Source: a virus | Strand: one strand, 5' to 3' | Length of the DNA: 37,386 nt | IMG/VR virus record: IMGVR_UViG_3300034196_000044 | Location: 1 to 37,386 of that record | Shown here: positions 1,701 through 31,003 of the stretch, one piece after another | How the letters are laid out: each line of letters starts with the position of its first letter | Position numbering within the stretch: the stretch's first letter is position 1 | Made by a program: the position numbers and the translations under genes | The notes under the pieces: generated by a model | Told to the model about the DNA's origin: nothing | Database searches by the model: none | What the model saw: only the letters and a program-made list of their open reading frames with translations

Positions 1701-1742
1701 CTGGTCTATGGTTAAATGTGTATGCCAAAGGAGGCGCGCAAG

Positions 1743-3428
1743 ATGAAATCGCAAGGCACAAAGAAGGCGGTAAAACCTGGCCCTGATTCGGTAGCCGCGC
1801 AGAAGGTCAAGGCTGATCTGACGGCGCACATGCGGGAGCAAGAGCGCGCCACCTTCGGCAACGTCGGCGGGGCTACTCGGCAGAAAATAGAGCTAGGCGT
1901 GATAATCACGGATCTACTAAGAGACGTAGAGCAGATCGATAACAACGAGGATCTGAGCCGCGCTGAAAAAACCAAACGCCTCGGCAGGCTGGCCCATAAG
2001 GTCAGAACAAAACTGTATGAGGACGGGCGCAAAAAGGAGGAGGACAAGCTCAAGGCGACGACCTATCGCCGCTACCTGACGGACATCCGCAAGGCTATCA
2101 CCGCCAAAAACTGGCGCCATCACTCGATCGAGGAGGCCTGCCGGCGCCTGGCCAAGCGTCACCCTAAATACGCCGATCAGCTCTTGGCCATGGCTCAGAT
2201 CGAGGACATTACGCCCCTTCGGATCGCCCACCGCGACCTCAAAAACGAGATCCGCCGCGATGGTGATAACGAGGCCTATATGGCCGTGCGTGACATGAAG
2301 CTCGATCACGAAATCATGCGCCACCTTGCGTTACCGCCCGTTACCCGTGATCAGCTCGCCGAAAATGCGGCAGACGTGCTCGAGCACAAGGCTACCAACA
2401 CGATCGAGATCAACTACCACTGGCTTGTAAAGACTGCCAGCGAGCTCCTGGCCGCGCAGCAGTTGCGCAGCGACGGTTCTGCCGCGCCGTTTTACTCCTA
2501 CCTTGCTCTCGGGATCGCCATGGCCACCGGGCGCCGTGCGGTCGAAGTGCTCAAGCAAGGCCGGTTCAAGAAGGTCGGCGACTTTGAGCTCGAATTTAGC
2601 GGCCAGGCCAAGCAGCGCGCCGGCGTCGACTACAGCTCGAGCTATCGGATCTACACCTTGCTCGATGCCGATACCGTGCTCGATGCCATCAAGCGTTTGC
2701 GCGCGATGCCGGAGGTAATAGACCTACAGGACAAGGACAACACCGAAATAAACCGGCGCACCGCGAAGACTCTCAACACCTTGACCAAGCGCATTTTTAA
2801 GGATGACGAGAGGGTTTTTAAGGACTCCCGCGCCATTTGGGCGAGGGTTGTCTTTGAATCCCATTTCAAGCGGGACCCGCGCTGGCGCAAGGTGAACGAG
2901 GAGGTTTTCTGGCGCGAGGAGCTTGGCCATGAAGACATGGACACGCAGGAGAGCTACAAGCAGTTCAAAATCGACTATACCGCGCCGCCAGCCGAGGCCG
3001 AGGGAGCAAGCCGTTTCGCCAGTCGCCTCGAGGCGCTCGAGGCCCTTGATTCGCACCCCAGCATCCAGGGGCGCGAAGCAATGGAAAAAATTCATTCCTG
3101 GGTGAAAGCGACTATCAAGACAGAGCCTGCGGCGCGGATCATTCAACGAGCGATCGCAACGAACGTCGGCAGCTACCGCCCGATAATCAAAGAGTACCTC
3201 GAAGTTGCATCGGAGGCCCTGGCCAGCCCTAGCCGCCCGCTAAGTGCCATTGCCGCCGAAGTGCCGGCTGAGGTGGTGAAGGCTAAGCCGCACTTGGTTG
3301 CACATAAAGCCGATGATGGTCAGTGGGTTGCAGTGCTCAGTATCAACGGTGTCGAGGTTGCTCGGGCCGAGGATAGCGACCGCATTGCCGCCAGTAAGGC
3401 CGCTTTCTCTATGATTGCGAAGGTCTGA
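1743..3428 (+). CDS. telN: Protelomerase (hairpin telomere resolvase)
   Basis: This 561-aa enzyme resolves the replicated palindrome at 1535-1613 into covalently closed hairpin ends. It shows the tyrosine-recombinase-like active site of the TelN/TelK family. Arg is in ATGRRAVEVL (about residue 264), Lys in SGQAKQR (about 290), the second Arg in IWARVVFE (about 368), His in LGHED (about 396) and the nucleophile Tyr in ESYKQ (about 405). The His-to-Tyr spacing of 9 equals that of TelK (H416/Y425). The N-terminal 150 residues are charged and helical and precede the catalytic core. The C-terminal part after 420 is an accessory domain. It is somewhat shorter than TelN (about 630 aa). I chose ATG 1743 because AAAGGAGG lies 8 bp upstream; an in-frame ATG at 1716 has no such site. 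The gene ends convergently, overlapping the next gene by 20 bp. Confidence 0.95.
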   Translation: MKSQGTKKAVKPGPDSVAAQKVKADLTAHMREQERATFGNVGGATRQKIELGVIITDLLRDVEQIDNNEDLSRAEKTKRLGRLAHKVRTKLYEDGRKKEEDKLKATTYRRYLTDIRKAITAKNWRHHSIEEACRRLAKRHPKYADQLLAMAQIEDITPLRIAHRDLKNEIRRDGDNEAYMAVRDMKLDHEIMRHLALPPVTRDQLAENAADVLEHKATNTIEINYHWLVKTASELLAAQQLRSDGSAAPFYSYLALGIAMATGRRAVEVLKQGRFKKVGDFELEFSGQAKQRAGVDYSSSYRIYTLLDADTVLDAIKRLRAMPEVIDLQDKDNTEINRRTAKTLNTLTKRIFKDDERVFKDSRAIWARVVFESHFKRDPRWRKVNEEVFWREELGHEDMDTQESYKQFKIDYTAPPAEAEGASRFASRLEALEALDSHPSIQGREAMEKIHSWVKATIKTEPAARIIQRAIATNVGSYRPIIKEYLEVASEALASPSRPLSAIAAEVPAEVVKAKPHLVAHKADDGQWVAVLSINGVEVARAEDSDRIAASKAAFSMIAKV

Positions 3429-3669
3429 TGTGATGCACATTCTCTGACGCTTTTGGTGCCGAGGCATACGCCACCGGCACCGCCTCCCCTACCTGCCCCG
3501 CTAGGTCCAGCGCCTCGAGCGCTTTCCCTACTTCCTGCCGCATCAAATCGTTTACTTCCATAACGCTGGCCAAGTCAGCGTTTGGCCCCGCCTTTGCCAT
3601 CAACCCTAATGCCGCTTCAATCCGATGAAGTCGGCGCGCTGCTTGCTCGATGTGTTCCATGTAGTGCAT
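3409..3669 (-). CDS. Small LexA-box-controlled protein, candidate antirepressor
   Basis: This 86-aa acidic protein starts at ATG 3669 (MHYMEHIEQAARRLHRI...), with GGGAGGG about 7 bp upstream. It is predicted to be largely helical: an amphipathic N-terminal helix (residues 1-25) and a second helix rich in Leu and Ala (about 35-60). There is no recognised domain. A perfect LexA-type box lies 38 bp upstream of the start. In related temperate phages, short LexA-controlled proteins (Tum of 186, AntC of N15, and small-protein modules of linear plasmid prophages) inactivate the repressor. Position beside repA and cI, size and promoter all fit, but the antirepressor role is inferred. Alternatives are another SOS-induced small regulator or a replication modulator. 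Its 3' end overlaps the protelomerase gene tail-to-tail by 20 bp. Confidence 0.8.
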   Translation of the reverse strand: MHYMEHIEQAARRLHRIEAALGLMAKAGPNADLASVMEVNDLMRQEVGKALEALDLAGQVGEAVPVAYASAPKASENVHHIRPSQS

Positions 3670-3706
3670 TTGGTAGCCCTCCCTATTTCCGTGCTGGCAC
3701 TGTAAC

Positions 3707-3726
3707 CACTGTATTTCTATACAGTG
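3707..3726 (-). promoter_or_regulatory. LexA (SOS) box
   Basis: A perfect inverted repeat has arms CACTGTAT (3707-3714) and ATACAGTG (3719-3726) around TTCT. Inside it is CTGT-N8-ACAG (3709-3724) with an A/T-rich spacer, the gammaproteobacterial LexA consensus. An extra half site, CACTGTAA, lies at 3698-3705. It stands between repA's stop codon and the start of the 86-aa gene read on the minus strand, so it should make that gene DNA-damage inducible through host LexA. Confidence 0.8.
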
Positions 3727-3731
3727 TAATC

Positions 3732-6700
3732 CTAGTGCGCTCCTTGGTGTAGTCGTTGCGCGTAAGCGAGCATGAAGCCGATTTGCTTCTCGTCCGCCCC
3801 GTCCCGAGAGAGGCCAATTGCCACCTCGGGCGCGAGAGCTTCTACCAAAGCTGCAATTGATGCACCGAGAGGATTGAAAGAGCGACGAGCGGCAGCGTAA
3901 ATACGATTGCGGACATCAAGGGGATACTTTTCATCTGACGCTATACCCTCACTCTGCAAAGTCTCCCCCTCGACCGTTGGGGCGGCCTCGAGGCCAGGTT
4001 TTGGCTGGTGCGCGGTGCTGCTGTGCTCGTGGGTAGTCAGTGAGTGAACGCCGATGGCCGCGCGGTTTGTCACGTACTGCGACATAAACGACCAGTGCTC
4101 AGGGTTGATTTGATACAGCACTCGACCGTGGGACTTGCGGTTTTTCACGCCCAGGCCAATTTTGACCAAGATCGACTTAACGAGCGTGGTCGCACAGCCG
4201 CGTTTCCCTCCAAATTTGGCCAGTTTCCCCAGCTTGAGCGAGTTGTAGAGCTCCACCGACTCCTGTGAGGTGTGGATGCGGTCCAAAATTTCGCGGCAGG
4301 CGTCGGCTGAGAACTCGCCAGCGCCCGTTACGGGATCGAGCCCTAGCGTGGTGAAGGTTTCGAGCAAGAACGCCCTTGTGGCCGTTTTGAAGCGGGTTTT
4401 AGACAGAACCACCCGTGCCTTGCGTTGGGCCTTGTCGTAGGCCCTGGCTTGCGCCTCTGTCGATTGCAATAGTTCCAGGGCGATAACCTTTGAAATACCT
4501 CGATCATCGTAAAATGCCACGTCGTCAGGCGTGATCTCAGAAACTCCGAGCTGGTGCTCGATCTGATAGCGATCCATCTGCGCCGCTTCCTCCTCGCTGC
4601 GCACTTCCATGCGGTCAAGTTTGGAAAATTGCTCATCAGTTGGGGTCTGTACGCTTTCGATCAGTTCCATGCGGCGCCCGAACACCAGCTGGCCGCCGAG
4701 CTTGCGATTTTTGCGGGAGGCCCGTGCGAGTAGCTCGTCGGTGGCCATGCGCACGACCTTGTAACCGTCTGCGTGCAGCATCATTAGCAGGTTGTTGGCG
4801 AAATTGTTCTTGGCGCGATTTTCGCTCGAGGTGCTGGCGAGGAAAAGCTCGTCGAAAGCGGTTTTTTGCCGGCGCAGCAATATCTCTGTGGTCGTTTCTT
4901 CAAATTCGCAGCTGATGGCGTCAGCAGCCAGCCAGCCGCGATAAATCGCCTCGCGGTCTGTTTCGCGCTGGGTGTTTGTGTGGCCGATACCGATCAGGTA
5001 GTTACGGGCTGTGCGATCGCGGCGGAGCATCTGAACAGCATCGCTCGGGCCGATGGTATTGCCGCTAAAAATACCAATGTGGTGTTGGAAATGCGGGATA
5101 GTCATCGACACGCCCGAGGAGATCGCCGGCGAGTAGATCAGAGCGTCATAGTGAACGGCCTCGCCGCACGGATCGGCGAGAAATGCGTCGACTGCGGGGT
5201 CTGATTTTGAGTCGCGATGAATCAATAAGAGCTTTGTTTCTGGCCGCTTTTCGAGGACAAGTGCCGCGAGCTTCTTGGCGCTTTCAGCCGAATCGTTGGC
5301 CACCAATACGCGGTTGCCGGCGAGGATCAGGTCGAGCGCTTTCTGCCATACCGTGTCAGTGTCGGAGTGGGTTACTGTGATGTGGCTCATAGAGCCGGTG
5401 ACATCGATAATTGTGATCGGGCGGCCTGGTGCTGCCTCCTCGCACAAGCGGATCACGGAATCGTTGGCGTCGGCGTCACAAAGCAAAACCCGTTTGGCGC
5501 TGGCCATGGCCTCGAGTAGCGCGTCCATTACACGAACGGGTGAATCCACCGGGCCTGTAGTGGTGTGGCGGATAACCTGGCTCGCCTCGTCGATGCACAG
5601 TGTGTCGATGGTAGTGAACCAACTGCGATCATCGCGGTTATAAAACCTGTCCTTGGTCAGTGAGTTAACGCAGCATGCCATGTGTGTTACGTCGAGCATT
5701 TCAACTGATGTAACTTGCTGGTAATGCTGAATATTCAAGCGGCTTGCAGCGTCATCGAGCAGGCTGATCCGGTGGGCGATGTAGGCGGCCCGTGGCGAGT
5801 TCTGCATCACCGGCGCGATCAACCCCTCGGTTTTTCGGGAGCCCATAGGGGCGCGAACGATGACAAAACCCTCGAGTGACTCCACCAGATCCGCAATGTG
5901 GTCAGGCAGCACAGTGCCGCCGTGGCTGGCCACGACGCCCGGCATTTTCAGGTAACGAACGTTTGGCTTTGTCAGGGCGGCAGCGGAGAAACCGCGCAGC
6001 TCCTGCACCTCGCTCAGTTTCAGCTTGGCCAGCCATACCGCGCGGCGTCTGATTTTGAATGTGGAGAAGTTGAATCCGGTCGGGAGTTCATCGATCACGC
6101 GGTCGATCACCTGGCGCGTGCTGAATTTGATCGGGACGAGCAGCATGCCGGCGCCGATTGCATCAAGCGCCGCTTTCTCGGCTGATAGTCCGCTGATAGA
6201 GATTCGTTGCAGGCGGTACTCGAAATAGTCCTTTGCCGACTTGTAAGAGTCACGCGCTCGAAGTGCCTTTGCCATGGCCTTTAGGCCGAAAAGGCAGTGG
6301 TAGTCATTCCAGTCGGTAGGGCCTTCGTAGGCCACGCGGAACTTGTTGAGCTCCTCCTCGCCGAGATCCTCGAAGGATGGCAGCACGGCCCAATGCTCAA
6401 AATCTCGGTGAATATCCAGGGCAGCCAGGCGCCCGGCGTTGCCAGATCGGGACCATTGGTCATCATCGGCAGCGTTGATAATGCGCAGCTTTTCATGGCG
6501 ACGTTTGTAGAGCTGGATCACTTTGCGCAGGTTGCCAACGCTGAACGTGATAATCACGGCAACTGAATTTGATGCTGAATGCTCCGCGAGGAAAACGCTC
6601 GCGCCGGTGGCGAAGCCCTCCACGGCATACACACGCTTGGCGCCTTCGATGTCACCAATAATGCAGTGCAGGCCATCCATCTTTACGCCTGTGCCCTGGT

Positions 6701-7472
6701 ACTTGCTGCGGTCGTAGATCCGTTGCAGGCCGCCGAAGTCGCCGTCGATGTTGAACATTGGCACGGCAGTAAAAATGCCGTGACGATCACGCATACGCTT
6801 CAATTGCACGAATTGAGCGATATCGCTGATCTGCTTTCGCTGTAGATAAGGGGCGCTGCCGTCCTCGGCGCCGAGCAGCTCTACCGTGTCGGTGTCTTCG
6901 ACCTGGGTGCGCTTGTCGCGCAGGTACTTGAATTCAACGGCGCCGCCCCTGAACCACACTTGTTCATAGGCATCGCGCTCGGCCTCGGCGCGAGCAAGGA
7001 TCAGCGCCTCAAGCCTGTCGGCCTCGGCGCGTTTACGGGCACGCTCCTCGCTCTTGGCCGCCTGGGCCTTTTTCCATTCTTCGTGCTTGCTGTCGGAAAC
7101 GAGGCCGCGATCGCGCTCGTACATTTCCAGCAGGGCCGAGAAGCCAGACCAGACGCTCGAGCCTATGGAGGCGTTGTTGTTGTTGAAGGTGAGTTGCGGC
7201 AGATCTTTGCCGTTGTCCAGCTTATAGAGCTGGCCCCACACCATCAGCTTGCCATTCTGCTTTTTGTCGGTCGCGCCGATTTTTCGGCGGTATTTGGTGC
7301 CCTTGCCTACCGAGTAGGTGACGTCATTGCAGATAGATGCCCAGTCGACGCCGACTTGACTCGCCGTGTCGGCGATCTCGTTAAAGCAGTAGTCGAGCAG
7401 CGAATCGGGGTTCGAGTGAAAGCGATCCTCATAGAAGGATTGCAAGCCTGTGGTTTTGTCTAAATCGGTCAT
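3732..7472 (-). CDS. repA: Replication protein RepA (CyRepA1/N15 type primase-helicase)
   Basis: This 1246-aa multidomain initiator of the N15 RepA class (N15 RepA is about 1320 aa) combines primase and helicase functions for plasmid replication. A Toprim-like segment has Glu in VEGFATG (about residue 285) and acidic residues in NAADDD (about 335-338). A P-loop APMGSRKTE is at about 541-549 and a Walker B DEAS at about 628-631. A helicase-like C-terminal lobe follows. The C-terminal third is basic and may bind DNA. I chose the ATG at 7472 (MTDLDKTTGL...), behind GGGACG. The in-frame ATG at 7601 lies upstream of the repeat cluster at 7483-7510 and would translate through it, so it is less likely. 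In N15 the origin lies inside repA; I could not pick one out here. Confidence 0.93.
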   Translation of the reverse strand: MTDLDKTTGLQSFYEDRFHSNPDSLLDYCFNEIADTASQVGVDWASICNDVTYSVGKGTKYRRKIGATDKKQNGKLMVWGQLYKLDNGKDLPQLTFNNNNASIGSSVWSGFSALLEMYERDRGLVSDSKHEEWKKAQAAKSEERARKRAEADRLEALILARAEAERDAYEQVWFRGGAVEFKYLRDKRTQVEDTDTVELLGAEDGSAPYLQRKQISDIAQFVQLKRMRDRHGIFTAVPMFNIDGDFGGLQRIYDRSKYQGTGVKMDGLHCIIGDIEGAKRVYAVEGFATGASVFLAEHSASNSVAVIITFSVGNLRKVIQLYKRRHEKLRIINAADDDQWSRSGNAGRLAALDIHRDFEHWAVLPSFEDLGEEELNKFRVAYEGPTDWNDYHCLFGLKAMAKALRARDSYKSAKDYFEYRLQRISISGLSAEKAALDAIGAGMLLVPIKFSTRQVIDRVIDELPTGFNFSTFKIRRRAVWLAKLKLSEVQELRGFSAAALTKPNVRYLKMPGVVASHGGTVLPDHIADLVESLEGFVIVRAPMGSRKTEGLIAPVMQNSPRAAYIAHRISLLDDAASRLNIQHYQQVTSVEMLDVTHMACCVNSLTKDRFYNRDDRSWFTTIDTLCIDEASQVIRHTTTGPVDSPVRVMDALLEAMASAKRVLLCDADANDSVIRLCEEAAPGRPITIIDVTGSMSHITVTHSDTDTVWQKALDLILAGNRVLVANDSAESAKKLAALVLEKRPETKLLLIHRDSKSDPAVDAFLADPCGEAVHYDALIYSPAISSGVSMTIPHFQHHIGIFSGNTIGPSDAVQMLRRDRTARNYLIGIGHTNTQRETDREAIYRGWLAADAISCEFEETTTEILLRRQKTAFDELFLASTSSENRAKNNFANNLLMMLHADGYKVVRMATDELLARASRKNRKLGGQLVFGRRMELIESVQTPTDEQFSKLDRMEVRSEEEAAQMDRYQIEHQLGVSEITPDDVAFYDDRGISKVIALELLQSTEAQARAYDKAQRKARVVLSKTRFKTATRAFLLETFTTLGLDPVTGAGEFSADACREILDRIHTSQESVELYNSLKLGKLAKFGGKRGCATTLVKSILVKIGLGVKNRKSHGRVLYQINPEHWSFMSQYVTNRAAIGVHSLTTHEHSSTAHQPKPGLEAAPTVEGETLQSEGIASDEKYPLDVRNRIYAAARRSFNPLGASIAALVEALAPEVAIGLSRDGADEKQIGFMLAYAQRLHQGAH

Positions 7473-7693: not shown

Positions 7694-7748
7694 GTGCGTC
7701 TTGAAAAAGTAAAAAAAACTAGCGGGTTGCCGCCAGTTTATCCATATT

Positions 7749-7784
7749 CTCTGTATTCAGTGGAAAACTTTTCTCTGTTTATCG
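7749..7784. promoter_or_regulatory. Putative CI operators upstream of repA
   Basis: CTCTGTATTCAGTG (7749-7762) is an imperfect dyad, and CTCTGTTTATCG (7773-7784) shares its left half. The same half, CTCTGTAT, starts the dyad at 8531-8544 on the other side of cI. They overlap the cI 3' end and lie where a repA promoter reading leftward would be. Repressor binding is inferred from the shared sequence only. Confidence 0.4.
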
Positions 7785-8444
7785 AATGATGCCCCTAGAG
7801 GTCCTCATTACCATGCCTATGACTACCCCAATCGCTCGAAAATTGCCATCAATCTGCTGAACGGGAAACTGTGGGTTCAATGCACGCAAATAGCTTTGTG
7901 AGCCATCCTGAACAAGCTTTTTGAATGTGGGCGCGGTTGACTCGGCGGTGTATCCGATCACGAAATCATTGACTTGAGGCTCTTGGCTTGGGTCGATGAA
8001 AATCAGCGCGCCGGTTGGAAAGGCCGGGCCTGCGGGGGCATGCATTGATTCATCACGGACGCGCAGGAAAAAGCCTCGAGGCGTCTGGCTGTCGAGTGGT
8101 ATTTCCCACGGCGTACCGCTTGGAAGCCTAGATATATCAGGGCTTTGAGCCCATTCGGCTGCCATTTCCCATGGCACAACCGGAGCTCTTTTTGAGTGCT
8201 CAGACGGTGCCAAAGGCGAATTTGGCGACGCGCTTTCCTCGATCAGCTTGTCGATCGTTGTGCCAAAAGCTGCTGCGATCGCATAAGCCTTGTCCACCGA
8301 AGGGTTTGAATTTTCCTTTTCAATATCGCTCACGTACCCGGTGTAGATCTGTCCGCCCGTCTCATCGCAGAGCCGTTGCATGGACCATCCGAGTTCTCGG
8401 CGACGCCGCAATACAGCGGGGCCAATCGTTATCTGTTTCTTCAT
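7779..8444 (-). CDS. cI: CI-like repressor (HTH plus S24 peptidase fold)
   Basis: This 221-aa prophage repressor has an N-terminal XRE-type helix-turn-helix (residues about 8-70, including the recognition segment TGGQIYTGYVSDIEKENS) joined by a linker to a LexA/CI-like S24 domain. The catalytic Ser is in DESMHAP (Ser133) and Lys in TFKKL (Lys175). At the place where related repressors have Trp-x-x-Ala-Gly, this one reads PWEMAAEW (residues 91-98), so the scissile Ala-Gly appears to be Ala-Ala. I chose ATG 8444 (MKKQITIGPA...) because AGGAGG precedes it by 11-12 bp; an upstream in-frame start would add 29 residues unlike the family. It diverges from the early operon and lies between operator-like dyads. 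Confidence 0.92.
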   Translation of the reverse strand: MKKQITIGPAVLRRRRELGWSMQRLCDETGGQIYTGYVSDIEKENSNPSVDKAYAIAAAFGTTIDKLIEESASPNSPLAPSEHSKRAPVVPWEMAAEWAQSPDISRLPSGTPWEIPLDSQTPRGFFLRVRDESMHAPAGPAFPTGALIFIDPSQEPQVNDFVIGYTAESTAPTFKKLVQDGSQSYLRALNPQFPVQQIDGNFRAIGVVIGMVMRTSRGIIR

Positions 8445-8530
8445 AGCGGCTTGTTCCTCCTGGCGCCTATTGTCCTCTCTGAATGCTGAACGCATCCATT
8501 CCGTAAGCAGAGATTTTCTTGCGTATTTCA

Positions 8531-8564
8531 CTCTGTATATAGAGAATGTGGGTCAATCCACATT
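8531..8564. promoter_or_regulatory. Putative operators in the cI/early-operon divergent region
   Basis: Two adjacent dyads lie in the 147-bp interval between the divergent starts. CTCTGTATATAGAG (8531-8544) is symmetric apart from one base pair and shares CTCTGTAT with the sites beyond cI. Immediately next to it is a 20-bp perfect dyad with arms AATGTGG (8545-8551) and CCACATT (8558-8564) and a 6-bp spacer. They are unrelated in sequence, so one may serve CI and the other the regulator encoded at 8592. Confidence 0.5.
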
Positions 8565-8591: not shown

Positions 8592-9212
8592 ATGGCGAAT
8601 CGCACGGAAAAGGAAGTCTTGCTCTACCAGACTGCGGAATGGTTTAAAAATTCTCCGTGGTCAGTTGAGGCGTTCGCCCACGATGCACTAGCCCCCGCGT
8701 TGGCTGCCGCTGGTCTGATCGAGCCGCTTGGCGTGCCCGACGACGGCGCAGAGTACCTGCGTGATCGTAAGGCCTGGGGTCAGCAGATCTCCCGCATTTT
8801 TCACGGTACCAAGCCGTTTCCGCTTGAATGGAAGTGGGTCTGGATTAACAAGGTAGCAGAGCCATATCGCACCAAGATCCTAACCGAGTGCCAGGCGCTA
8901 GCCGGTTGCATGAATGTGAAGCTTCCCGAGATCCGTACCGTTGATGGCGTGCGGTCTGCCCGGGCGCGCATTGGCGACGTGATGGTCGAGGTTGGCGAGT
9001 TCTTCACCTCTGCGGCTGATCCTTCTGGCGATGGCCAATACGATCGAGAGGACTGCCAGGTCGCCGCCAAGGAAATGTTGACCAAGGGCGTCGAGGCAAT
9101 CCAGGCGATTTTGGCGGAGCTGCAAGCGGTTTCAGCGGGCACCGGAGTTGATCTGCCAGCCCTGGCGCTTTCGCCGCTGGCGGCGTTTGCTGGGGGTGCT
9201 GGCCGTGACTGA
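8592..9212 (+). CDS. Putative early transcriptional regulator in cro/cII position
   Basis: This 206-aa protein is the first gene of the rightward early operon, divergent from cI. Residues about 55-90 (KAWGQQISRIFHGTKPFPLEWKW region) look like a helix-turn-helix of the kind seen in phage CII-like regulators, where an 'LNG..PFP..W' pattern is common. The C-terminal half is acidic and helical and ends in an Ala/Gly-rich tail. A GAGAGGG lies 11 bp upstream of ATG 8592. The position argues for a lysis-lysogeny switch protein that acts on the divergent operators. I cannot assign it to Cro or CII by sequence, and a replication accessory role is possible. Confidence 0.7.
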   Translation: MANRTEKEVLLYQTAEWFKNSPWSVEAFAHDALAPALAAAGLIEPLGVPDDGAEYLRDRKAWGQQISRIFHGTKPFPLEWKWVWINKVAEPYRTKILTECQALAGCMNVKLPEIRTVDGVRSARARIGDVMVEVGEFFTSAADPSGDGQYDREDCQVAAKEMLTKGVEAIQAILAELQAVSAGTGVDLPALALSPLAAFAGGAGRD

Positions 9213-30379: not shown

Positions 30380-31003
30380 ATGTCTTGGACTCCGCCTGTT
30401 CACCTCTTGTTGTGCCCGATTACCGGAGAAGACGATCAGTTGATCGAGCATATCCAGCTCAAACCGTTGTATTACGCTGCACAGAAAGACGCGCTCGCCA
30501 AGGCCGGCAGCGATGAAGATGACCAGTTTTTCGAGTTGGCCAAGTTGGCCACCGGCTTGCCTGGCAAGGTGCTGGATCGGCTTATGCGCCCGGATTACGT
30601 GACAATTGCGCAGTACGTGCATGATATGTCGACCCGCCCGGCCTCGTATTTCCTGGCCAACGCCGCTAGTGATGCGGAGCTCGAGGGTGATTCTCGCGCC
30701 GAGTCCGCCGGTTCGGCAGATCCGGAGAATCTCGACGAGGTGCATTTGCTGTTCCCGCTCAATGTCGCAGGCGCGCAAGTCACCTCGTTGAGCCTTCAAA
30801 TGCCGGCTCTGATGGCCACCAAGACAATGAAAAAGCTCAAGACGCCGAAAGAGCGCGCCGAGTTCATTACCGCCCATTGCACCGGCCTGATGATCCCCGA
30901 CCTTGCGCTGTTGAGCGTTCCTGACTGGACCCAACTACAGGAGCGTATCGACGATTTTTTAAACAAGCCGGCGGCCTTTTTTCGGAACGCGATATCGAAG
31001 TAA
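30380..31003 (+). CDS. E: Tail assembly chaperone gpE
   Basis: This 207-aa protein is the gpE-type tail assembly chaperone at the usual position between the tube and the tape measure. It carries LLCPITGEDDQLIEHIQLKP, a helical middle and MKKLKTPKERAEFITAHC. It is longer than P2 E (91 aa). A slippery TTTTTTA at 30955-30961 lies near its 3' end and leads to the E' extension, so it is made in two forms. Confidence 0.88.
   Translation: MSWTPPVHLLLCPITGEDDQLIEHIQLKPLYYAAQKDALAKAGSDEDDQFFELAKLATGLPGKVLDRLMRPDYVTIAQYVHDMSTRPASYFLANAASDAELEGDSRAESAGSADPENLDEVHLLFPLNVAGAQVTSLSLQMPALMATKTMKKLKTPKERAEFITAHCTGLMIPDLALLSVPDWTQLQERIDDFLNKPAAFFRNAISK

Follow-up and report, generated by a model that had tools for sequence, protein, structure and literature searches.

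A predicted LexA-controlled antirepressor gene between telN and repA in linear-plasmid phages whose repressors lack a self-cleavage site

How does a prophage respond to DNA damage when its repressor has lost the site at which it would cut itself? This question is raised by the IMG/VR virus record IMGVR_UViG_3300034196_000044, whose whole 37,386 bp form the window analysed here. The window is of the linear-plasmid (telomere) phage type, with a ParA gene, a telomere-like palindrome, telN, repA, a cI-like S24 repressor, a CII-like activator and a Q-like antiterminator (gene identities come from Pfam and PHROGs searches). The convergent telN and repA leave a gap of roughly 300 bp, in which a small open reading frame (ORF) of 86 amino acids (aa), hereafter the smORF, lies behind a LexA (SOS) box. 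From its sequence and context, we consider it likely that the smORF encodes a LexA-repressed antirepressor which ties the induction of this linear-plasmid prophage to SOS in the host. In the lysogen, host LexA would sit on the box and keep the smORF off. DNA damage would lead to RecA-driven cleavage of LexA and expression of the smORF, and the small helical-hairpin protein would neutralise the phage cI, its predicted target, probably by binding it, so that the lytic genes are freed (presumably including the CII-like activator) and lysis follows. Such an indirect SOS route would be needed because the Ala-Gly self-cleavage site is gone from the repressors of this clade, and often the catalytic residues are gone too. 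We infer LexA binding, cI binding and induction, and regard antirepression as the best-supported function of the smORF.

The box has the form CTGT-N8-ACAG with perfect 8-bp arms, the only such sequence in the window, and starts 5 bp past the repA stop codon, 37 bp upstream of the smORF ATG (3667-3669). When the 384-nt region was shuffled 3000 times with dinucleotides preserved, no shuffle reached a score of 16/20, and the second-best box in the window, at 30923, scores only 13/20 and is within coding DNA, which leaves the one in the telN-repA gap as the window's only strong LexA box. The initial annotation had described a perfect SOS box controlling this gene and nothing else, and both points hold, as telN, which comes next, runs towards the smORF from the other side and the two overlap at the smORF's 3' end. 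Upstream of lexA in five Pseudomonas and Stutzerimonas genomes with such a prophage, two boxes of the same type are found in each case (14-16/20), scoring no better than the phage box (17/20). With the conservation of the box across the clade, LexA control of the smORF, also proposed initially, is strongly supported and, judged by sequence, nearly certain.

Relatives were collected with a protelomerase profile, which gave 53 IMG/VR and 9 GTDB loci, and plasmid and phage searches added named records. Wherever the telN-repA gap is short, in Pseudomonas, Stutzerimonas and Halomonas alike, repA is directly followed by a CTG-N10-CAG box, and in all these loci a small ORF begins 21-44 bp after the box (the boxes of loci L027 and L060 were read by eye after the script misjudged the gap boundaries). 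The gap in boxed loci is about 280-430 bp and contains the smORF alone. There are 58 smORFs, 51 of them distinct, the latter being the fairer count because some contigs or phages were fetched twice and so count as two loci. Most are 84-98 aa long, and a GGAGGG-like Shine-Dalgarno sequence is present in most relatives. Boxes of comparable quality are almost absent elsewhere in the 1.04 Mb fetched, apart from one box in N15 and another, a weak one, in the window. The smORFs of Pseudomonas are homologous to those of Halomonas (hhalign Prob 95.6, E 1.3e-8), and by profile comparison the smORFs form a clade-wide family. It includes ORF35 of the Halomonas phage phiHAP-1, which has the same slot, the same box type and a homologous smORF, and is annotated only as a 'hypothetical' protein; in five matching Pseudomonas RefSeq plasmid records the smORFs are mostly unannotated.

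The smORF is a real coding gene under purifying selection, as indicated by nucleotide changes that pile up at third codon positions and by a low ratio of non-synonymous to synonymous substitution (dN/dS), which is 0.05 against the closest relative, 0.05-0.24 against the nearest relatives and mostly 0.1-0.4 over 21 pairs. AlphaFold predicts a two-helix hairpin (helices 2-30 and 33-62, predicted local distance difference test (pLDDT) >90 in the helices) followed by a disordered, proline-containing C-terminal tail. The protein had been said to belong to no recognised family, which stands for Pfam and PHROGs and does not stand more widely, in that the smORF has relatives throughout the clade, a family with weak similarity to Qtip (see below). 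Searches of Pfam and PHROGs with the single protein and 25 members gave weak coiled-coil-type hits (TarH 1e-4, 4 members), dismissed as helical composition. A PDB sequence search gave weak matches only, the best being designed helical proteins, and tblastn of the 86-aa protein against phages gave nothing relevant. The Pseudomonas DUF3077/DUF6124 small proteins were also considered for their resemblance, which no Pfam match supports.

Self-cleavage of a repressor requires an Ala-Gly (or Cys-Gly) site and a Ser/Lys dyad. The scissile Ala-Gly or Cys-Gly is found in none of the 52 repressors from boxed loci. The catalytic Ser has been lost in 29 of them (replaced by Thr, Leu, Gly or Ala; parsimony on the tree counts six changes), Arg replaces the catalytic Lys in the Halomonas members, and both dyad residues are kept in only 15. 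The window's cI is among these 15, with Ser133 and Lys175, and has Ala95-Ala96 at the position of Ala-Gly in self-cleaving repressors. Some repressor linkers have the motif LPAGT, which includes Ala-Gly; it was discounted as a cleavage site because it comes ~15 residues past the expected position and the window does not have it. The residues at these positions suggest that the clade repressors are not inactivated by self-cleavage. By comparison, the VP882-type (L004, L051) and HY01 repressors keep WVQAG, Ser and Lys, and have no LexA box. That the box goes with a non-cleavable repressor largely reflects a single evolutionary split; the Ser was nonetheless lost several times within it. The phage phiHAP-1 is reported to be induced by mitomycin C (PMC10305713) and has a non-canonical repressor and a LexA box together. 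A LexA-controlled antirepressor would resolve how mitomycin C induces phiHAP-1 despite its degenerate repressor.

The slot between telN and repA is already associated with antirepression. In the linear-plasmid phage VP882 it holds qtip, a small ORF counter-oriented to telN like the smORF, whose product sequesters cI and is a proven antirepressor (PMC10432266). The smORF72 of a Vibrio phage is in the same slot as qtip (PMC11323111), and smORF72 and smORF63 of the Vibrio 1F-97 phages are comparable, although smORF63 adjoins par instead. Qtip, at 79 aa, is shorter than most members of the smORF family, and both are predicted two-helix hairpins (for Qtip with pLDDT 70, modelled on one sequence alone). 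Alignment of Qtip to the smORF profile keeps the same register and reaches E 0.005 with hhalign (Prob 7%), a score that beats 300 composition shuffles and 350 background ORFs, the latter being a lenient control, as the majority of those ORFs are non-helical. When shuffles preserved the hydrophobic pattern, the Qtip score was reached by 0/250 for the full profile and 2/250 for the Halomonas profile. A genome profile search of VP882-type records found no smORF family member, and Qtip in VP882 was not picked up. Homology between the smORF and Qtip is plausible on these comparisons. Qtip differs in its control, being driven by the phage transcription factor VqmA (quorum sensing) rather than LexA, with no SOS box, and the VP882 repressor is autoproteolytic, with the site WVQAGLW (PMC10432266). 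Three relatives of VP882 (L052, L053 and L056) have repressors without Ala-Gly, yet no LexA-box smORF in the gap; their gaps, of 1.07-1.14 kb, contain other small genes, e.g. a 77-aa ORF and an XRE-like 113-aa protein.

A further link to cI comes from the way the genes diverge. Pairwise distances of the smORF and cI, with telN and repA removed, give a partial r of 0.54 (permutation p 0.0005), or 0.66 in Pseudomonas alone, compared with -0.05 (0.15 in Pseudomonas alone) for telN and cI with repA removed. These partial distance correlations support co-divergence of the smORF and cI, and are indicative rather than proof. The lost cleavage site, the qtip slot, this co-divergence and the reported mitomycin C induction of phiHAP-1 all favour the antirepressor role suggested in the initial annotation. 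Its placement of the gene in the immunity region was wrong, as the telN-repA gap is about 4 kb from cI.

Several observations weigh against an SOS-controlled antirepressor of cI, and the alternatives draw on some of them. No strong box was found upstream of two Halomonas lexA genes, so the match with host boxes is limited to Pseudomonas and Stutzerimonas. No sigma-70 consensus promoter was found between repA and the smORF. Nor was a terminator found there. With the box immediately behind repA, bound LexA could also stop transcripts running on from repA, a gene that would have to be transcribed in the lysogen, and so hold the antirepressor off.

The Ser/Lys dyad in the window's cI is intact, and slow cleavage at Ala-Ala is possible. 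The repressor might thus still cleave itself under SOS, with the smORF merely a helper, as the 15 clade repressors that keep the dyad would allow. We consider this unlikely, because the scissile Gly is missing throughout, and loss of the cleavage residues while the box was kept argues that self-cleavage has not been maintained across the clade.

Slightly less likely again is an SOS-induced accessory protein, such as a modulator of RecA, LexA or cell division or a host-takeover factor, which does not act on cI and leaves induction to another route. The predicted fold carries no functional clue, as fold searches gave generic helical hairpins only and no E <0.17. The phage L044 is a mosaic with an immunity swap relative to phiHAP-1 (L003): telN, smORF and repA are 97-98% identical (smORF 98%, repA 97%), whereas cI is only 41% identical, so that the same smORF would need to act on two very different repressors. 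Similarly, L017 and L018 have identical smORFs and cI DNA-binding domains that are only 69% identical. These mosaics speak against strict lock-and-key matching of smORF and cI. A broad-specificity antirepressor would fit them, as would a different target, and broad-specificity antirepressors are known in Salmonella (PMC3121763). An accessory role sits poorly with a smORF that alone stands behind the window's single strong SOS box, in the qtip slot of a phage whose repressor has no cleavage site. Searches of Pfam and PHROGs gave no match to DinI, UmuD or SulA types, and the divergence of the smORF tracks that of cI.

It is improbable that the smORF product targets its neighbours RepA or TelN instead of cI, e.g. 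to switch from plasmid to lytic replication after DNA damage. Adjacency and a residual smORF-repA distance correlation of 0.37 would suit such a role, as would L044, which retains repA and the smORF with cI swapped. However, the partial correlation is greater with cI and only about 0.1-0.15 with telN, and no SOS route to inactivate cI would remain.

That the palindrome is an operator of the phage cI rather than a LexA box, as might be thought from the core CTGTATA that it shares with candidate cI operators near cI (e.g. CACTCTGTATATAGAGAATG at 8529-8548), is very improbable, because its CTG-N10-CAG spacing is constant in relatives while the cI DNA-binding domains vary (L017/L018 69%, L003/L044 59%), and no comparable LexA-type box is present within the cI-cII regions of the fetched loci. 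The candidate operators are CTCTGTATA-type repeated motifs on both sides of cI, at 7747-7788 and 8497-8548. Two pairs of loci, L017/L018 and L021/L025, combine identical or near-identical smORFs with cI C-terminal domains that are 94-95% identical and DNA-binding domains that are only 69% identical; they are heteroimmune partners, useful for recognition mapping.

The logic of a LexA-controlled antirepressor has been proven in Gifsy, 186 and N15 (PMC3121763). GfoA, GfhA and GftA of the Salmonella Gifsy phages are alike in pairing a non-cleavable repressor with a small LexA-controlled antirepressor (PMC3121763), and differ in that the Gifsy phages are integrated lambdoid prophages, with the antirepressor in an operon behind dinI and short repressors without a C-terminal domain. 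Tum of coliphage 186 is also an antirepressor under LexA, but has 146 aa and a DinI-like second half, and 186 is not a linear-plasmid phage. Closest in lifestyle is N15, a linear-plasmid phage with telN and repA, a non-proteolytic repressor and the SOS-controlled antirepressor AntC. Its telN is distant (about 31% identical), the gap between its telN and repA measures 3 kb and holds other genes and no SOS box, and its box is elsewhere. The smORF is not in an N15-type immunity locus like that of AntC, and the locus and gene order differ. In the N15 record (L073:5676, about 21658), a 17/20 SOS box is found just upstream of gene 26 (UmuD-like).

Instead of the adjacent phage-encoded transcription factor of the transcription factor-smORF modules, the smORF has a host LexA box. 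We suggest, tentatively and with slightly less than even confidence, that Qtip and the LexA-controlled smORFs belong to a single antirepressor family occupying one slot, in which linear-plasmid phages have switched the wake-up signal through promoter control (host LexA or a phage quorum-sensing factor), with repressor self-cleavage reciprocally kept or lost. A cleavable repressor would thus be paired with a quorum-sensing smORF, and a non-cleavable repressor with an SOS smORF. The search by Silpe and colleagues covered only phages with predicted autoproteolytic repressors, and only transcription factor-smORF pairs, and a 2025 follow-up described HAP-1-like phages as being without such a module (PMC12802170). 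HAP-1-like phages do carry the smORF, apparently with host LexA as its regulator, and the module seems to have been overlooked until now, although supplementary tables may list the ORF uncommented. If our reading is correct, it would supply the missing induction switch for the Pseudomonas/Halomonas phage-plasmid clade, including phiHAP-1, reported to lack such a module. The clade would also provide a natural contrast between two modes of sensing DNA damage, the self-cutting repressor and the LexA-controlled antirepressor, and between two signals at one locus, quorum sensing and SOS.

Table 1. Positions of the smORF, its predicted control elements and the phage genes discussed.
Feature	Position	Strand	Basis and remarks
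telN protelomerase	1716..3428	+	Pfam PF16684, E 6e-30; one border of the slot
smORF, 86 aa, predicted LexA-controlled antirepressor	3409..3669, stop included	-	ORF, dN/dS, family, AlphaFold
Shine-Dalgarno GGGAGGG of smORF	3677..3683	-	Read from sequence
LexA (SOS) box CACTGTATAGAAATACAGTG	3707..3726	-	17/20 to SOS consensus; predicted by sequence
repA replication protein	3732..7472	-	PHROG 4913, E 1.5e-294; start codon not certain; upstream of and co-oriented with smORF; second border of the slot
cI-like repressor (HTH + S24 domain)	7779..8444	-	Pfam HTH_3 and Peptidase_S24; PHROG 4 transcriptional repressor
Repressor codons A95-A96	8157..8162	-	Alignment with VP882 WVQAGLW and 52 clade repressors
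CII-like activator	8592..9212	+	PHROG 4834, E 1.4e-44; first gene divergent from cI

In the window, a near-perfect long palindrome at about 1536-1612, between parA and telN, is the expected telomere resolution site. Among the relatives, L002, L068 and L069 (P. aeruginosa NZ_CP096940, P. corrugata NZ_CP102178 and P. monteilii NZ_AP022474) are 75-79 kb 'circular plasmids' in which telN (and, where visible, repA and cI) is present twice in inverted orientation. A ~38-kb linear plasmid with hairpin-closed ends probably underlies each of them, either dimerised head to head or doubled by an assembly artefact. The locus L066 is a Halomonas-type phage contig listed under Spirulina subsalsa FACHB-351, which is probably contamination from an associated bacterium.
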